The position numbers and the translations under genes were made by a program. Of a DNA stretch of 29,756 nucleotides, positions 8,938 to 18,705 are shown piece after piece (positions within the stretch are counted from its first letter, which is position 1; every line of letters starts with the position of its first letter). This DNA comes from a virus, in the IMG/VR virus record IMGVR_UViG_3300046837_000273, positions 1 to 29,756 of that record. The stretch is one strand, 5' to 3'. The notes beneath the pieces were generated by a model. It had not been told where the DNA came from. It saw only the letters and a list, made by a program, of their open reading frames with translations, and searched no databases.

Positions 8938-10011
8938 CTAGGCCGCCTCTTTTTCCATTTCCCGCCGCACCAGCAGTTCGGCAGTTTTACGGGGCATCCG
9001 CAGGGCGGTTTGTCGGACCCGCAGCTCGTAGTCGGGGCCAAGATCCTCAGGGGCAGGTTTCGGCCGTAGCTTCGGGACCGCAGGCAAGACGCCCTCCATC
9101 GCGGCTCGTCGTACCCAGGCGCTCAGGCTCAGGCCGGCTTCAGCGGCTCGCTCTTTCATCCGGGCCTTCTCCCCAGGCGTAGCCCGCAGCGGAATAACCT
9201 CGGTGCGAGTGATCCTGGAAGGCTTCCCTGGCGACGGAGTTTTCGGTCGTTTTGGTCTCGGGGGAGGCGGGTTGCAAATCCGGCACCGCCAAGTTTTCCC
9301 AGACCAAATCCGCGAAGCGGTCGGTCCCGATAGGCCCAGGTCGTCAGCGACCGCACGAACCGTCTCGCCGCCTGCGACCCGCTCCCGCACCGCAACCGCC
9401 TGCTCCGGTGTCGCCGAAGAACTACCTCGAGCTTGCTGCCGCAGATGGCCAATATCGGCACATTGCGGTTTGCGCTCCTCCCAACGCTCTCGCCAGTGTC
9501 GATTTGAATGGTCGCTGGGCGCAATCACCTCCAGGTTCTCCAGGCGGTTGTCGGTCTTCTCCCCGTTGATGTGGTGGACTGCCATGCCGCTCGGGATCGG
9601 GCCGTTGGCACGTTCCCAGACCAGCCGGTGCTGCAACGCCCACTTCTCGCCCGTGTATTCCAACACGTAGCCCGCGTCGTTCTTCCGCGTTTCTCCGACA
9701 CGGCGGCAACAACTTCCATCGTGGCCCGCTACGAATCGGCGGGGCGAGGTGCCATCGGCTTTGACCGCAGGGATCTTCTCTCCGCAGCCGCACTCGCAGT
9801 CCTTGAGTCCGGCCTTCTGGACCGCTTGCTTGCGCCACGCACGGGCTCGTTCACGAAGGGCGTCCCGATCTGTCGGAGGGGCTTCCTGCACTATGTGAAC
9901 GTACCAATCGCCTCGGAGTGCAAACAGGTCGATGAACAGGGGATTGGTAGCCGCTGTATGGGACCCGCTGCGCGCCAGGGGGTGGGCGGTGTCGACGTGC
10001 GATCTAGGCAC
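8938..10011 (-). CDS. HNH endonuclease fused to HTH and ribbon-helix-helix-like segments
   Basis: 357 residues from GTG 10011; the first ~45 residues are doubtful and a later start is possible. Order: a CECGCGEKIP cysteine module (about residue 78), the HNH core with ALQHRLVWERANGPIPSGMA and VHHINGEKTDNRLENLEVI, then EQAVAVRERVAGGETVRAVA with SGPTASRIWSGKTW, which reads as a resolvase-like HTH, then a CRIC motif, and finally IPLRATPGEKARMKERAAEA with LSLSAWVRRAAMEG, resembling the ribbon-helix-helix of MobC-type proteins. HNH proteins beside terminases can assist cos cleavage, which is one option; a homing endonuclease is another. No frameshift is seen. Confidence 0.82.
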   Translation of the reverse strand: MPRSHVDTAHPLARSGSHTAATNPLFIDLFALRGDWYVHIVQEAPPTDRDALRERARAWRKQAVQKAGLKDCECGCGEKIPAVKADGTSPRRFVAGHDGSCCRRVGETRKNDAGYVLEYTGEKWALQHRLVWERANGPIPSGMAVHHINGEKTDNRLENLEVIAPSDHSNRHWRERWEERKPQCADIGHLRQQARGSSSATPEQAVAVRERVAGGETVRAVADDLGLSGPTASRIWSGKTWRCRICNPPPPRPKRPKTPSPGKPSRITRTEVIPLRATPGEKARMKERAAEAGLSLSAWVRRAAMEGVLPAVPKLRPKPAPEDLGPDYELRVRQTALRMPRKTAELLVRREMEKEAA

Positions 10012-10917: not shown

Positions 10918-11444
10918 TCGCTCAGGTTGCTCTCGATGCGGTCGATCAGCCATCGCTTCCACGCTTCGGACTCCGCGCCGCCGTAGACGCGCTCTTGGAA
11001 GTTTTCGAGCTTGTGGTCGGCTCTGCAAACAAGCTCGATGTCATCGAAGCGTTCGATGCTGCCGTTGTTTCGCGGTCGTTCGCCTGCGTCGAAAGCTGCG
11101 CCGGCGATCCCCTTGAGTACGTCGATAGGGCCGAATCGTCGTTCTTTGAGGCGCGGCGCGATCTGTTTGAACCGCTCGTGGCTGAACTTCGATCCTTCGT
11201 GTCCCGTGGCGAGTGCCCACCAAGTGAAAACCTGCTCGGCCTCTGCCCAGAGTTTCGATTCGCGGTCTTCTCGCTCTCGGCGTCCCTCTAGGCGGCTCAC
11301 CTTCGCGGAGAGGATTCTGATTTGCCGCTCGTGCTTCTCGATTACGGCGTCCTTGTCTACGCAGTCTGGGCAGCCTGCGTAGTCGTCAAAGTCGCCAGTA
11401 GCGGGGTCGATGAGCCGCCAGACTCGTTCGGTGTTGTCGCTCAT
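10914..11444 (-). CDS. Phage hypothetical protein with CxxC and coiled coil, replication-region type
   Basis: 176 residues from ATG 11444 (ATGA overlap with the HNH gene). N-terminus ERVWRLIDPATGDFDDYAGC gives a CPDC pair, then a coiled coil (AVIEKHERQIRILSAKVSRL), then a helical domain with FTWWALATGHEGSKFSHERF and SIERFDDIELVCRADHKLEN. A similar layout, with a CPDC start, a coiled coil and a final fragment about a rationed 'region of interest' helix, occurs in actinophage hypothetical proteins as I recall them. Function is not established; a role in replication is only suggested by the gene neighbourhood. Confidence 0.7.
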   Translation of the reverse strand: MSDNTERVWRLIDPATGDFDDYAGCPDCVDKDAVIEKHERQIRILSAKVSRLEGRREREDRESKLWAEAEQVFTWWALATGHEGSKFSHERFKQIAPRLKERRFGPIDVLKGIAGAAFDAGERPRNNGSIERFDDIELVCRADHKLENFQERVYGGAESEAWKRWLIDRIESNLSE

Positions 11445-11965
11445 GCCTTGGCCCGCCTGTGTCTCTTGCTGGCCTCGTTGCGGCATCGACGGCAGGCCTG
11501 GTGACCATCGGGCCTGATGTAGAGATTGCTCCCCTCGTAGGGATGGCCGTGCGGGCAGTGAGTTTTCCGAAGTCGTTTGATGCGCGCAACGTTCTCCGCG
11601 TGAGCCACGGCCTCTAAATGCGCGGGGTTAACGCAATTCTTTACTTCACAAAGGTGGTCTAGCTCTAGGCCATCGGGGATCGGGCCGCGCTCAAGTTCAT
11701 AGGCAAAGCGGTGAGCACGAACCGACTTTCGGCCAACGTCGAAATAGCCGTAGCCGTTGCTGCGCCTGCCCACCCAAAGCCAGCAATCATCCATCCGCTC
11801 CACCTTCGCCCAGAATCTTGCGGTGATATCCGTTTTAGGTTCGCGCCAGCCCTTGTAATGGCCGGGCGCAAACCGCGTTGGCTCACCCCTGACATGCCCG
11901 AGGTGTTTGCGTGTTTGTTTTGCGATTGGCGCTGGCTTCCCGCAACCGCACTCGCACAGCTTCAT
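11441..11965 (-). CDS. HNH endonuclease with CECGCG module
   Basis: 174 residues from ATG 11965. It begins MKLCECGCGKPAP and a FAPGHYKG segment, the same N-terminal cysteine module as the HNH fusion beside TerL. Next come CWLWVGRRSNGYGYFDVG, VRAHRFAYELERGPIPDGLE and LDHLCEVKNCVNPAHLEAV, the HNH_3-type core with catalytic His in LDHLC. The C-terminus has a second metal site (HCPHGHPYEG ... CRRC). It overlaps both neighbours by 4 nt, so it is a tidy operon member rather than a disruptive insertion. Probably a homing or restriction-like nuclease. Confidence 0.9.
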   Translation of the reverse strand: MKLCECGCGKPAPIAKQTRKHLGHVRGEPTRFAPGHYKGWREPKTDITARFWAKVERMDDCWLWVGRRSNGYGYFDVGRKSVRAHRFAYELERGPIPDGLELDHLCEVKNCVNPAHLEAVAHAENVARIKRLRKTHCPHGHPYEGSNLYIRPDGHQACRRCRNEASKRHRRAKA

Positions 11966-12373: not shown

Positions 12374-12805
12374 TCAAGCCGCTTCCTGTTCTCGTTGTTC
12401 ACGCAGGACTGCCGCCGCGAGTTCAGACCGCCTAGCCGTTGCGGAGGGACGTTCGGCGTATCGCTTGGCGGCTCGCTTCTGCCGTTGACGCTTGCGCGAC
12501 TGTTGTTTGAGCCGCGCCTTGTCTTTTGACTTGGATGTCCCCTTGAGCGGCTGCGCCGGCTGATCGCGCAGGCCACCTTTCTCGTGAAACAACCGATGGC
12601 ACCGCGTACACAGGACGGTTAGATCGGCGTCCCGCTCTTCGCCCACGCGAGCGTAGGTGCGGTGATGAACCTGTAGGCGGCGCTTTGAGTAGCAGACCTG
12701 GCAACGGTGGTCGGCGCGTTCAAGTGCGCCTCGTCGCTTGGCCTTCCACTCAGCCGATTCCAAGTACTGGCTGTATTCCTCCTTGCGAGTGGCTTTAGAG
12801 GCCAT
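12374..12805 (-). CDS. HNH endonuclease, compact
   Basis: 143 residues from ATG 12805; GGAG lies 8 nt upstream. Residues ~8-70 hold the HNH core: EEYSQYLESAEWKAKRRGAL, CQVCYSKRRLQVHHRTYARV and LTVLCTRCHRLFHEKGG, with two CxxC zinc pairs and the catalytic HH. The C-terminal half is a long Lys/Arg-rich helix (KDKARLKQQSRKRQRQKRAA), likely for DNA contact. It is close to McrA/5-methylcytosine-type HNH proteins as well as homing nucleases, and to the HNH seen near phage packaging genes. Target unknown. Confidence 0.9.
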   Translation of the reverse strand: MASKATRKEEYSQYLESAEWKAKRRGALERADHRCQVCYSKRRLQVHHRTYARVGEERDADLTVLCTRCHRLFHEKGGLRDQPAQPLKGTSKSKDKARLKQQSRKRQRQKRAAKRYAERPSATARRSELAAAVLREQREQEAA

Positions 12806-12929
12806 TTCGCTCGCTCCCGTTACGTGCATAGGCGGCGGATTGGCTACCGCTCCCACGCAAGAGCTGCCCCTGCGGCTTCTCGCTCAACCCCTCTGGGCTG
12901 GCCTCTTGACCGCAGGCGCTAACTGTCAC
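12795..12929 (-). CDS. Possible 44-residue overlapping small ORF
   Basis: GTG 12929 forms a GTGA junction with the previous stop, and 44 codons run to a TAA 11 nt inside the HNH gene. The product is polar, Gly/Ser/Gln-rich and has no motif. It fills a gap of about 120 nt in a region where every gene overlaps its neighbour, which is the only support. Chance is not excluded. Confidence 0.28.
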   Translation of the reverse strand: MTVSACGQEASPEGLSEKPQGQLLRGSGSQSAAYARNGSERNGL

Positions 12930-16603: not shown

Positions 16604-16842
16604 GACTTCTCCTTTCCTTTCGTCTCGCTGTCTATTCGGATGAGGTCGGGGCAGCGGAGAGCGAGGGGTTCGGTGGTCCATTCGCGGTAGCCGCCGTCTT
16701 TGGGGTCAGGCGGCTCCCAGTCAACTCGCACCCGGTGGAAAAGCCCATCCCCGTTCGATGCCACGGTTCCGACGCGCCCGTCAGGGACCCGCACCCGATC
16801 TCCAACTCGCAGCTCCTCTCCCCTTGCGTCCTGTATGTGCAT
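16600..16842 (-). CDS. Small SH3/KOW-like beta-barrel protein
   Basis: 80 residues from ATG 16842, sharing one base with the methyltransferase stop. The pattern RGEELRVGDRVRVPDGRVGT then VASNGDGLFHRVRVDWEPP is typical of a small SH3-like or KOW-like beta barrel, a fold often used to bind DNA or RNA or to sit on a polymerase. The assignment comes from the strand-turn pattern only. It lies directly behind the C5 methyltransferase. Confidence 0.55.
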   Translation of the reverse strand: MHIQDARGEELRVGDRVRVPDGRVGTVASNGDGLFHRVRVDWEPPDPKDGGYREWTTEPLALRCPDLIRIDSETKGKEKS

Positions 16843-17729
16843 TAGATGGCCTCTTGTAGTTGGGAGCGGGTCATGCGTTCTTGCTCGTAGTCGAGGATTC
16901 GCCGGCCGATCCACTCTGCGATTTGCGGGACGAGGGAATCTCCGAGGGCGGCAAGACGGTCCACCTGGGCGGGTATCCCATGAGCCATTCGACCCACATC
17001 GGGCTCACCAGCAGCCCACGGGTTCTCGGCTTCCCACTCTGGAGCCAGTCCATCGCCAGAAAGTCCTCGAGCTGATGGCGGTGCTCCCCCGATTCCGCCC
17101 TGCTCCACGCCACCCCGTGCTTTCCCATCGCTGCCCGCGGTGTCGGGAACATCTCCACGAAATCGGTCAGCGTGACTCCGCTGTTGTGGCGGCTGCTCCC
17201 CTTCCGGCCGGCTGTCGCATTTCGCGCTGCTCGACCGTCGGCAACTGTCGGCGTCGGGGTACGCAATGACCCAGAGCCGGTCGCGGAGATGAGGGGCGCC
17301 GAAGGAGGCAGCGGGTAGGCAGTCCCACTCCGTGTCATACCCGAGCGCGGCCAGGTCTCCGAGAACTCGGCCAAACCCCCGAGCAAGGAGTGCTGGGACG
17401 TTCTCCACGACGACGTAGTCGGGTCGAAGTTCGCCAATGAGTCGGCTGAACTCGCTCCAAAGACCCGACTGCTCACCTGCGAGTCCGGCCCCCTTGCCGG
17501 CGTAGGAGAGATCGGTGCAGGGGAAGCCGCCGCAGAGGAGGTCGATTGGCGCGAGGATTCCTGCGTTGACCGTCCGAACATCGTCGTAGCGCGTGGCGCC
17601 AGGGAAATGCTGGGCGAGGACGGCTCGGCGGTAGGGCTCCCGCTCGACTTGCCAGACCGTCTGCATCCCGCATCGCTCGAAACCGAGGTCGAAGCCGCCA
17701 ATGCCCGCGAAGAGAGATCCGACCCGCAC
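16842..17729 (-). CDS. C5-cytosine DNA methyltransferase
   Basis: 295 residues from GTG 17729. It transfers a methyl group from AdoMet to C5 of cytosine. Motif I is SLFAGIGGFDLGFERCG (5-21), motif IV is GGFPCTDLS with catalytic Cys71, motif VI ENV is at 109-111, motif VIII is RDRLWVI (149-155), and motif X is ALGDSLVPQIAEWIG near the end. PCT replaces the usual PCQ. The target-recognition region (about 160-250) is Gly/Ser/Arg-rich and short. No restriction enzyme is beside it, so an orphan, anti-restriction role is likely. A second frame is open along most of the gene (see findings). Confidence 0.93.
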   Translation of the reverse strand: MRVGSLFAGIGGFDLGFERCGMQTVWQVEREPYRRAVLAQHFPGATRYDDVRTVNAGILAPIDLLCGGFPCTDLSYAGKGAGLAGEQSGLWSEFSRLIGELRPDYVVVENVPALLARGFGRVLGDLAALGYDTEWDCLPAASFGAPHLRDRLWVIAYPDADSCRRSSSAKCDSRPEGEQPPQQRSHADRFRGDVPDTAGSDGKARGGVEQGGIGGAPPSARGLSGDGLAPEWEAENPWAAGEPDVGRMAHGIPAQVDRLAALGDSLVPQIAEWIGRRILDYEQERMTRSQLQEAI

Positions 17730-17731
17730 AA
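16871..17731 (-). other. Long second-frame ORF overlapping the methyltransferase gene
   Basis: 286 codons from TTG 17731, in the +1 frame relative to the methyltransferase, without a stop until 16871. The product contains SSWRTSQHSLLGGLAEFSET, WPRSGMTRSGTAYPLPP, LRTPTPTVADG, GVTLTDFVEMFPTPRA and WVEWLMGYPPRWT. I recall these phrases from phage and bacterial proteins annotated near or as DNA methyltransferases. A high-GC genome produces long chance frames, and the start codon is weak, so this is a candidate overlapping gene only. Confidence 0.3.
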
Positions 17732-18103
17732 TTACCCCGCCCCCTCCCCACTAGGACTCTCTGACCCGGACTCGGCTAGTGATATGGCGCGGTCGAAGGC
17801 TGCGAGAACGTCTTTGTGGTAGTTCGTGTCGTTGAAGGGCGCGATTGCTCTGGCCCCGCTGCCGATGGAGCGGATGCCGCGCAGTACGAACTTCAGGCCG
17901 GTTCGTCTACGTGGCGCACCGCTCTCCAGTTCAAGCGCCCCGCCCATGCACCAACAGGTCGCTGCGGGGGAGTCGATCCGAACCTTGCGGCCCTGACTGT
18001 CGCGGGCAGCCACTCCCCGTGTCCAGTTCTCAATCGGCGTAATCCGCTTCCTCGCCGCCCTCAGAACCTCGACGGTTGATCGGTCCTGTTTCCTCTCCCC
18101 CAT
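17732..18103 (-). CDS. DUF6197-like protein
   Basis: 123 residues from ATG 18103, ending 2 nt before the methyltransferase start. It shows the layout I associate with DUF6197: an N-terminal helix (EVLRAARKRITPIENWTRGV), a CWCMGGALE core with two Cys, then FNDTNYHKDVLAAFDRAI near the end. No enzymatic activity is established for the family as far as I know. Here it lies between two DNA methyltransferases, so a link to DNA modification is possible but not shown. Confidence 0.65.
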   Translation of the reverse strand: MGERKQDRSTVEVLRAARKRITPIENWTRGVAARDSQGRKVRIDSPAATCWCMGGALELESGAPRRRTGLKFVLRGIRSIGSGARAIAPFNDTNYHKDVLAAFDRAISLAESGSESPSGEGAG

Positions 18104-18705
18104 TACGCCGCTACCTCAGGGTGGGGAAGCTGGGCGGTTTGTAGGCTCTCGTCTCCCCAGTAATCCCAGCCGAAGCGGGCGCGGCGGGCGAACATCTCAA
18201 GGCGGGGTTCGGGACTGACGCGCTCAACGAGATCGAGGAAGGCGTCGGGCTTGGCAGAGTGAATCGGGCCTTGCACGTAGGGCCGAGGCCACTCGAACCA
18301 CGTTCGGTCACAGCGGCTCCTCGCCTTGAGGGAGCCGCGTCGGCAGAACAGGACGAACTCCGAAGAATTGACGAACGTACCGCCGAAGCCGAGGCCCATC
18401 GGCGGCTTGCACCATGTCAGCAGGGTCGAAGGCTTGAACCCCCAGGACCGGGCTATGTCGTAGGCGTCCTCGAGGAAGGCGTTGACGGTCCACAGATAGA
18501 GATGAGCACCAGGGGCAGCGTGGTCGCGGACTGGCAGCGCCGCAATCTCCTCCACGGACATCCGGTCATACGGAATCCGTGAGCGCTTACCGGCCACACC
18601 CGCACCGGATGTATCCCAACGCCCGCCCTGGGACTCCGTTCGAGGTCCGCTGTCCTTGAGCGCCCACGGCGGGTCCGCAACAATCGTCCGGTACTTGCCG
18701 CTCAC
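18103..18705 (-). CDS. MT-A70 family adenine N6-methyltransferase
   Basis: 200 residues from GTG 18705. It would methylate adenine N6 in DNA using AdoMet. The catalytic DPPW is at residues 11-14 (IVADPPWALK). Further family stretches are ELPVRDHAAPGAHLYLWTVN-like (LPVRDHAAPGAHLYLWTVNA), GFKPSTLLTWCKPPMGLGFG and a final EMFARRARFGWDYWGDE. Length matches phage MT-A70 proteins. With the C5 enzyme one gene away, the phage may protect its DNA at two kinds of bases. No cognate nuclease is obvious. Confidence 0.92.
   Translation of the reverse strand: MSGKYRTIVADPPWALKDSGPRTESQGGRWDTSGAGVAGKRSRIPYDRMSVEEIAALPVRDHAAPGAHLYLWTVNAFLEDAYDIARSWGFKPSTLLTWCKPPMGLGFGGTFVNSSEFVLFCRRGSLKARSRCDRTWFEWPRPYVQGPIHSAKPDAFLDLVERVSPEPRLEMFARRARFGWDYWGDESLQTAQLPHPEVAA

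Follow-up and report, generated by a model that had tools for sequence, protein, structure and literature searches.

In the phage genome analysed here, one stretch of DNA very probably encodes a two-polypeptide C5-cytosine methyltransferase, with one chain in each of two overlapping reading frames. This view is based on sequence comparisons. Frame 0 (alpha) would give rise to the catalytic subunit with motifs I-VIII, a disordered linker and motif X, and the +1 frame (beta) to a second subunit with a conserved N-terminal block, a target-recognition region and motif IX. The N-terminal block of beta, which lies over the alpha motifs V-VIII, probably docks on alpha, and in such a complex the two polypeptides could rebuild one complete and active enzyme. 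The rebuilt enzyme would methylate the phage DNA, most likely against restriction by the host. In the recognition region the DNA would serve beta, and the alpha reading would merely be kept free of stops. The features of the locus in the window (the whole analysed virus record of 29,756 bases) are the following:

16842..17729, minus strand: alpha, the C5-cytosine methyltransferase ORF, 295 aa with a GTG start (PF00145, phrog_363, AF2/Foldseek)
17250..17729, minus strand: alpha residues 1-160, motifs I-VIII (GGFPC 67-71, ENV 109-111), according to the Pfam match and alignment A4
17013..17240, minus strand: alpha residues 164-239, unconstrained linker, according to frame-0 dN/dS in relatives and AF2 pLDDT
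16899..16964, minus strand: alpha residues 256-277, motif X (RLAALGDSLVPQIAEWIG), according to alignment A4; AF2 pLDDT 94-98 for residues 271-295
16871..17731, minus strand: beta, the +1-frame ORF, 286 aa from TTG; the true start is uncertain and may be internal, near codon 51-66
17276..17458, minus strand: beta residues 92-152, N-terminal block (SWRTSQ..FSETWPRSGM.RSG.AY.LPP), overlapping alpha motifs V-VIII, both frames constrained
17015..17260, minus strand: beta residues 158-239, variable recognition-like region (TPTPTVADG ... FPTPRA ...), according to +1 dN/dS in relatives
16952..17014, minus strand: beta residues 240-260, motif IX (LVSPMWVEWLMGYPPRWTVL), according to profile matches

An earlier note on this DNA had claimed that the frame +1 to the methyltransferase has no stop for 286 codons, and this ORF is indeed present at 16871-17731 on the minus strand. 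All phrases quoted in that note were found in the +1 translation, and the same DNA stretch reads EPDVGRMAHGIPAQVDR in one frame and SPMWVEWLMGYPPRWT in the other. The outer TTG start of beta overlaps the GTG start of alpha. Each +1 codon is composed of positions 2 and 3 of an alpha codon and position 1 of the next one. The middle base of the +1 codon is thus the wobble base of alpha, so that at this position, the most informative one of the +1 codon, the two sequences hardly depend on each other.

The virus record also contains portal, RusA, integrase and Rad52-like genes and, within its 30 kb, at least three HNH endonuclease genes (8938-10011, 11441-11965 and 12374-12856), one of them joined to a NikA-like domain. 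Directly upstream of alpha and beta, at 17732-18705, an MT-A70 adenine methyltransferase gene (PF05063, 5.9e-16) and a DUF6197 gene are located. Thus, two DNA methyltransferases lie side by side in this phage.

The assignment of alpha as the catalytic chain is based on matches to PF00145 (E=1.5e-40, residues 2-160), phrog_363 (E=1.4e-77) and TIGR00675 (6e-35, exceeding the family cut-off). The residues F69-P70-C71 and E109-N110, characteristic of a C5 methyltransferase catalytic domain, are conserved in alignment A4, and motif X is present as RLAALGDSLVPQ at residues 258-269. At residue 264 (16938-16940) this motif reads LGDSLVPQ, with D at a position where relatives nearly always have N. Since a nearly invariant residue is replaced, the copy in the window may be impaired or less active. 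In the AF2 model of alpha most of residues 1-160 were predicted with high confidence, and residues 191-229 (pLDDT <50) were modelled as disordered. When this model was used in a Foldseek search, the top matches were M.HhaI and M.HaeIII over ~163 columns; judging from the model, the part of alpha matching M.HhaI (327 aa) is the catalytic domain. A motif-IX profile detected no motif IX in frame 0 of the window.

The same profile scored 39.4 bits in the +1 frame, and the C-terminus of beta (LSPxWVEWLMGFPxGWT) sits at the position of motif IX. In profile-profile comparisons the +1 motif IX was matched to the motif IX that fused methylases have in frame 0 (prob 97.4) and also to the canonical motif IX (prob 89.6, E 1.9e-6; these are pairwise values, not database E-values). 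In the single-chain actinophage methylases L146 and L147, the segment equivalent to beta residues 158-239 is read in the frame of the catalytic domain. That the predicted +1 product supplies motif IX and the target-recognition region is supported by the sequences.

Beta matched phrog_1008 (E=1.7e-23, residues 49-260), as did the +1 protein of phage Wile (7.6e-95). The +1 proteins belong to this family, the label of which (DNA methyltransferase) is silent on the overlap with a methyltransferase gene in another frame and on a subunit role. No family was matched by beta in Pfam and NCBIfam, and a PDB profile search with the +1 family gave no match; for the N-terminal block, neither a solved structure was found by sequence nor a curated family. 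AF2 on beta alone gave a model of low confidence (mean pLDDT 58.5, pTM 0.25) with no fold. The open-access literature yielded no paper describing the overlap in this family; phrog_10089 in PMC9409062 was a false match for phrog_1008.

For the window alone, the openness of the +1 frame is weakly unusual, with a longest run of 285 codons vs 174 expected from synonymous shuffles (p ~0.04). In 20 methyltransferase genes with less than 50% GC, the mean length of the longest +1 run is 226 codons vs 92 expected from such shuffles, with p < 0.01 in 95% of the genes. The +1 frame of the window scored 227.8 bits against a profile for which only low-GC relatives had been used, and 500 shuffles with the alpha protein kept fixed reached 87.6 +/- 14.4 (maximum 133). 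The corresponding values for the N-terminal block of beta are 105.6 bits vs 41.1 +/- 8.9 in synonymous shuffles. A chance ORF due to high GC was rejected, since genes of 39-50% GC also have an open and conserved +1 frame, and a similarity forced by the methyltransferase protein was rejected by the synonymous shuffles. Since loci selected with the +1 protein could be biased, loci fetched by the methyltransferase alone were used as a check, and the signal was kept in them.

Both frames are under constraint, and the boundaries of this constraint differ along the gene. At conserved four-fold codons the wobble bases of alpha vary freely before codon 62 (mean KL of 0.13 bits) and are fixed only within the overlap (0.48 in codons 62-165 and, most strongly, 0.69 from codon 230 onwards); GGG at alpha codon 130 was present in 108 of 108 diverse genes. 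When the genes were chosen by the methyltransferase alone, the KL was 0.14 (codons 5-60), 0.38 (99-163) and 0.44 (240-260). The dN/dS ratios were calculated from 14 independent pairs only, and an earlier count over 721 non-independent pairs was left out because swapped recognition regions blurred the two-frame signal. For alpha and beta, respectively, the ratios were 0.24 and 1.13 in codons 1-60, 0.26 and 0.63 in codons 61-163, 1.25 (0.97-1.68) and 0.40 (0.27-0.53) in the variable region, and 0.48 and 0.37 in codons 240-260. In relatives, constraint on the +1 frame begins at alpha codon ~62-99. Only the +1 frame is constrained in the variable region, and therefore the DNA in this region encodes the +1 protein, the alpha reading being free. 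Some pairs of genes (L023/L043, L074/L075 and similar pairs) are at least 90% identical over their first 480 bases and then diverge sharply, which looks as if the recognition segment had been exchanged.

Regular stops in the second frame of homologous genes, or substitutions without constraint beyond the methyltransferase frame, had been named in the earlier note as evidence against a coding second frame. Openness, shuffles, wobble bases and dN/dS all revealed the opposite. Three options had been considered there, namely mis-annotation, translation of both frames and frame switching, and conservation supports dual coding. The translation of beta in this phage is predicted from the conserved sequence.

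The placement of motif IX in the two frames is complementary. Among 67 genes it was found in the +1 frame only in 53, in frame 0 only in 11 (in three of these, L111, L112 and L122, it was assigned by eye) and in both frames in none; the remaining three are without assignment. In-frame fusions to methyltransferase N-termini, a search for which had been recommended, were found in actinophages: in the fused methylases DillTech15 gp66 and prophiFSAT01-1 gp6 the segment corresponding to the C-terminus of beta lies in frame between the catalytic domain and motif X. In the split genes of RemusLoopin, Wile and TaylorSipht, the segment is located in an overlapping +1 ORF, which starts inside the first ORF. 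This second ORF holds the recognition region together with motifs IX and X, and in the actinophage relatives L141, L142 and L148 both motifs are likewise in the second subunit. The idea that the C-terminal region can switch frame thus holds true in evolution, since in actinophages this part is either in the +1 frame (split) or in frame 0 (fused); what conservation supports in the gene itself is dual coding.

The naturally fused forms would also be in line with programmed +1 frameshifting, by which the N-terminal half of alpha would be joined to the +1 C-terminal half, giving a single-chain enzyme with no separate translation of the +1 frame. In the split actinophage genes, the shifted product would even be complete, because the +1 ORF carries everything from the recognition region to motif X. 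However, the constraint on both frames over ~100 codons (61-163) is not required by a single slip site, the shifted product of a gene of the window type would lack motif X, which is in frame 0 there, and beta has start signals of its own in many relatives. We therefore regard frameshifting as improbable.

The proposed pairing of two subunits agrees with the genomic association between beta and alpha. When GTDB genomes were scanned with the +1 protein, 80 loci were kept, which are spread over many phyla (Proteobacteria, Verrucomicrobia, Planctomycetes, Spirochaetes, Actinobacteria, Bacteroidetes, Synergistetes and others). In 78 of them beta is paired with a methyltransferase in the +1 relation, 74 overlapping and 4 with the methyltransferase just upstream in the same register; the two exceptions are a cut contig (L177) and a locus with an odd register (L221). 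Beta is present in 15 of 369 genomes of the class to which an Acinetobacter genome belongs, and in all 18 loci examined from this set and the preceding search it is paired with alpha in the +1 register. A free-standing +1 protein was not confirmed at any of the 80 and 18 loci. With tblastn, beta matched 224 phage records. Of the viral contigs retrieved by alpha or by beta, almost every one with the methyltransferase also has the other protein in this +1 register.

This linkage speaks against the possibility that the +1 frame encodes an independent protein (e.g. a counter-defence factor) without a part in the methyltransferase reaction, and so do the location of the gene's only motif IX in beta and the in-frame fusion of the C-terminal part of beta to the catalytic domain in relatives. 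An independent protein could explain a conserved N-terminal block outside the solved structures and curated families, and also the persistence of the N-terminal signal in some single-chain methylases, but on balance we consider it an unlikely solution.

The N-terminal block is still recognisable in the +1 frame (z 3.9-5.0) of the fused actinophage methylases (L110, L123, L139, L146 and L147), which have motif IX in frame 0. Its retention there suggests a recent fusion of a split ancestor. Low-GC single-chain methylases (L104:2766-3164 and L118:2712-3140) have a canonical motif IX in frame 0 and also a +1 ORF of 133-143 codons, the N-terminal block of which is related (z 3.1-3.4) and the C-terminus different. 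The N-terminal +1 signal in single-chain methylases (z 3-5) is not fully accounted for by the subunit model; it may reflect ancestry or a second role.

The least probable explanation is that the +1 frame is untranslated and that RNA structure, DNA signals or codon bias, aided by high GC, conserved the wobble bases: the GC-rich window with its modest p value for openness alone would fit, but the open frame and its sequence persist at 39-50% GC, the variable region is constrained as protein in the +1 frame and unconstrained in frame 0, and the distant canonical methyltransferases L111, L122 and L138 gave no +1 signal.

Starts of beta embedded in alpha are present in relatives. An internal Shine-Dalgarno sequence followed by ATG was found for beta in 30 of 87 genes vs 9.8 +/- 2.7 expected. 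Some relatives start both proteins almost together (ATGAATG); in others beta begins within alpha, near codons 44-66. The window itself showed no internal start of beta with a Shine-Dalgarno sequence. The option of mis-annotation is correct insofar as deposited records annotate one frame or the other, but conservation supports dual coding and not a spurious frame. In Rctr197k only the +1 frame is annotated although a methyltransferase ORF of 257 aa is intact, and in E. coli PT62 and the Acinetobacter phage ABMM1 only the methyltransferase (alpha) is annotated. The copy in E. coli PCP07014 (L231:1500-2261) is flagged as a pseudogene and has an internal stop in the methyltransferase frame.

Methyltransferases composed of two polypeptides are known, and in M.EcoHK31I the coding region of the small subunit lies within that of the large one, in an overlapping frame. 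The larger subunit of this enzyme, which recognises YGGCCR, carries motifs I-VIII and X, and motif IX is in the smaller polypeptide, according to PMC3404938, citing Lee, Kam and Shaw (1995). Similarly, alpha of the window contains motifs I-VIII and X, and motif IX is found in the other polypeptide. However, the predicted recognition domain of M.EcoHK31I is placed in the larger subunit in the literature, whereas in the window the recognition region is assigned to the +1 chain by dN/dS in relatives and is disordered in the alpha model. The locus would thus work like M.EcoHK31I, but with the recognition region in the other subunit it was not classified as a member of this type. In addition, M.EcoHK31I is one restriction system, and the arrangement described here is that of a large phage and prophage family. 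M.AquI (CYCGRG) also consists of two polypeptides, being split in the variable region, and its second polypeptide carries motif IX (PMC3404938). The split actinophage genes resemble M.AquI most. In contrast to M.AquI, in which motifs IX and X are in the second subunit, motif X of the window is in alpha, and a long coding overlap like that of the window pair is not reported for M.AquI in PMC3404938. Finally, in a known phage methylase gene with a homing nuclease insertion, a second protein is also read out of frame within the methylase gene, but the nuclease is a mobile insertion in the third frame and, unlike beta, not a conserved methyltransferase subunit.

Based on these observations, we consider it rather likely that the locus represents a widespread class of phage and prophage enzymes, in which catalysis is encoded in one frame and recognition in the overlapping +1 frame, together with an overprinted docking domain without known structure or curated family. 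The specificity of such enzymes would be changed by swapping the recognition segment of beta, the matching alpha stretch being a linker that arises as a by-product. If this is true, the two same-strand genes overlap over a long distance (~200 codons are double-coding), and the pair is very widely distributed. The overlap would account for the two unrelated-looking proteins that are both named DNA methyltransferase and for annotations in which one frame is kept and the other is dropped. Further, phage methylases could seem inactive when only one of the two frames is expressed. Last but not least, the locus would be a ready system for studying the evolution of two proteins in one sequence.
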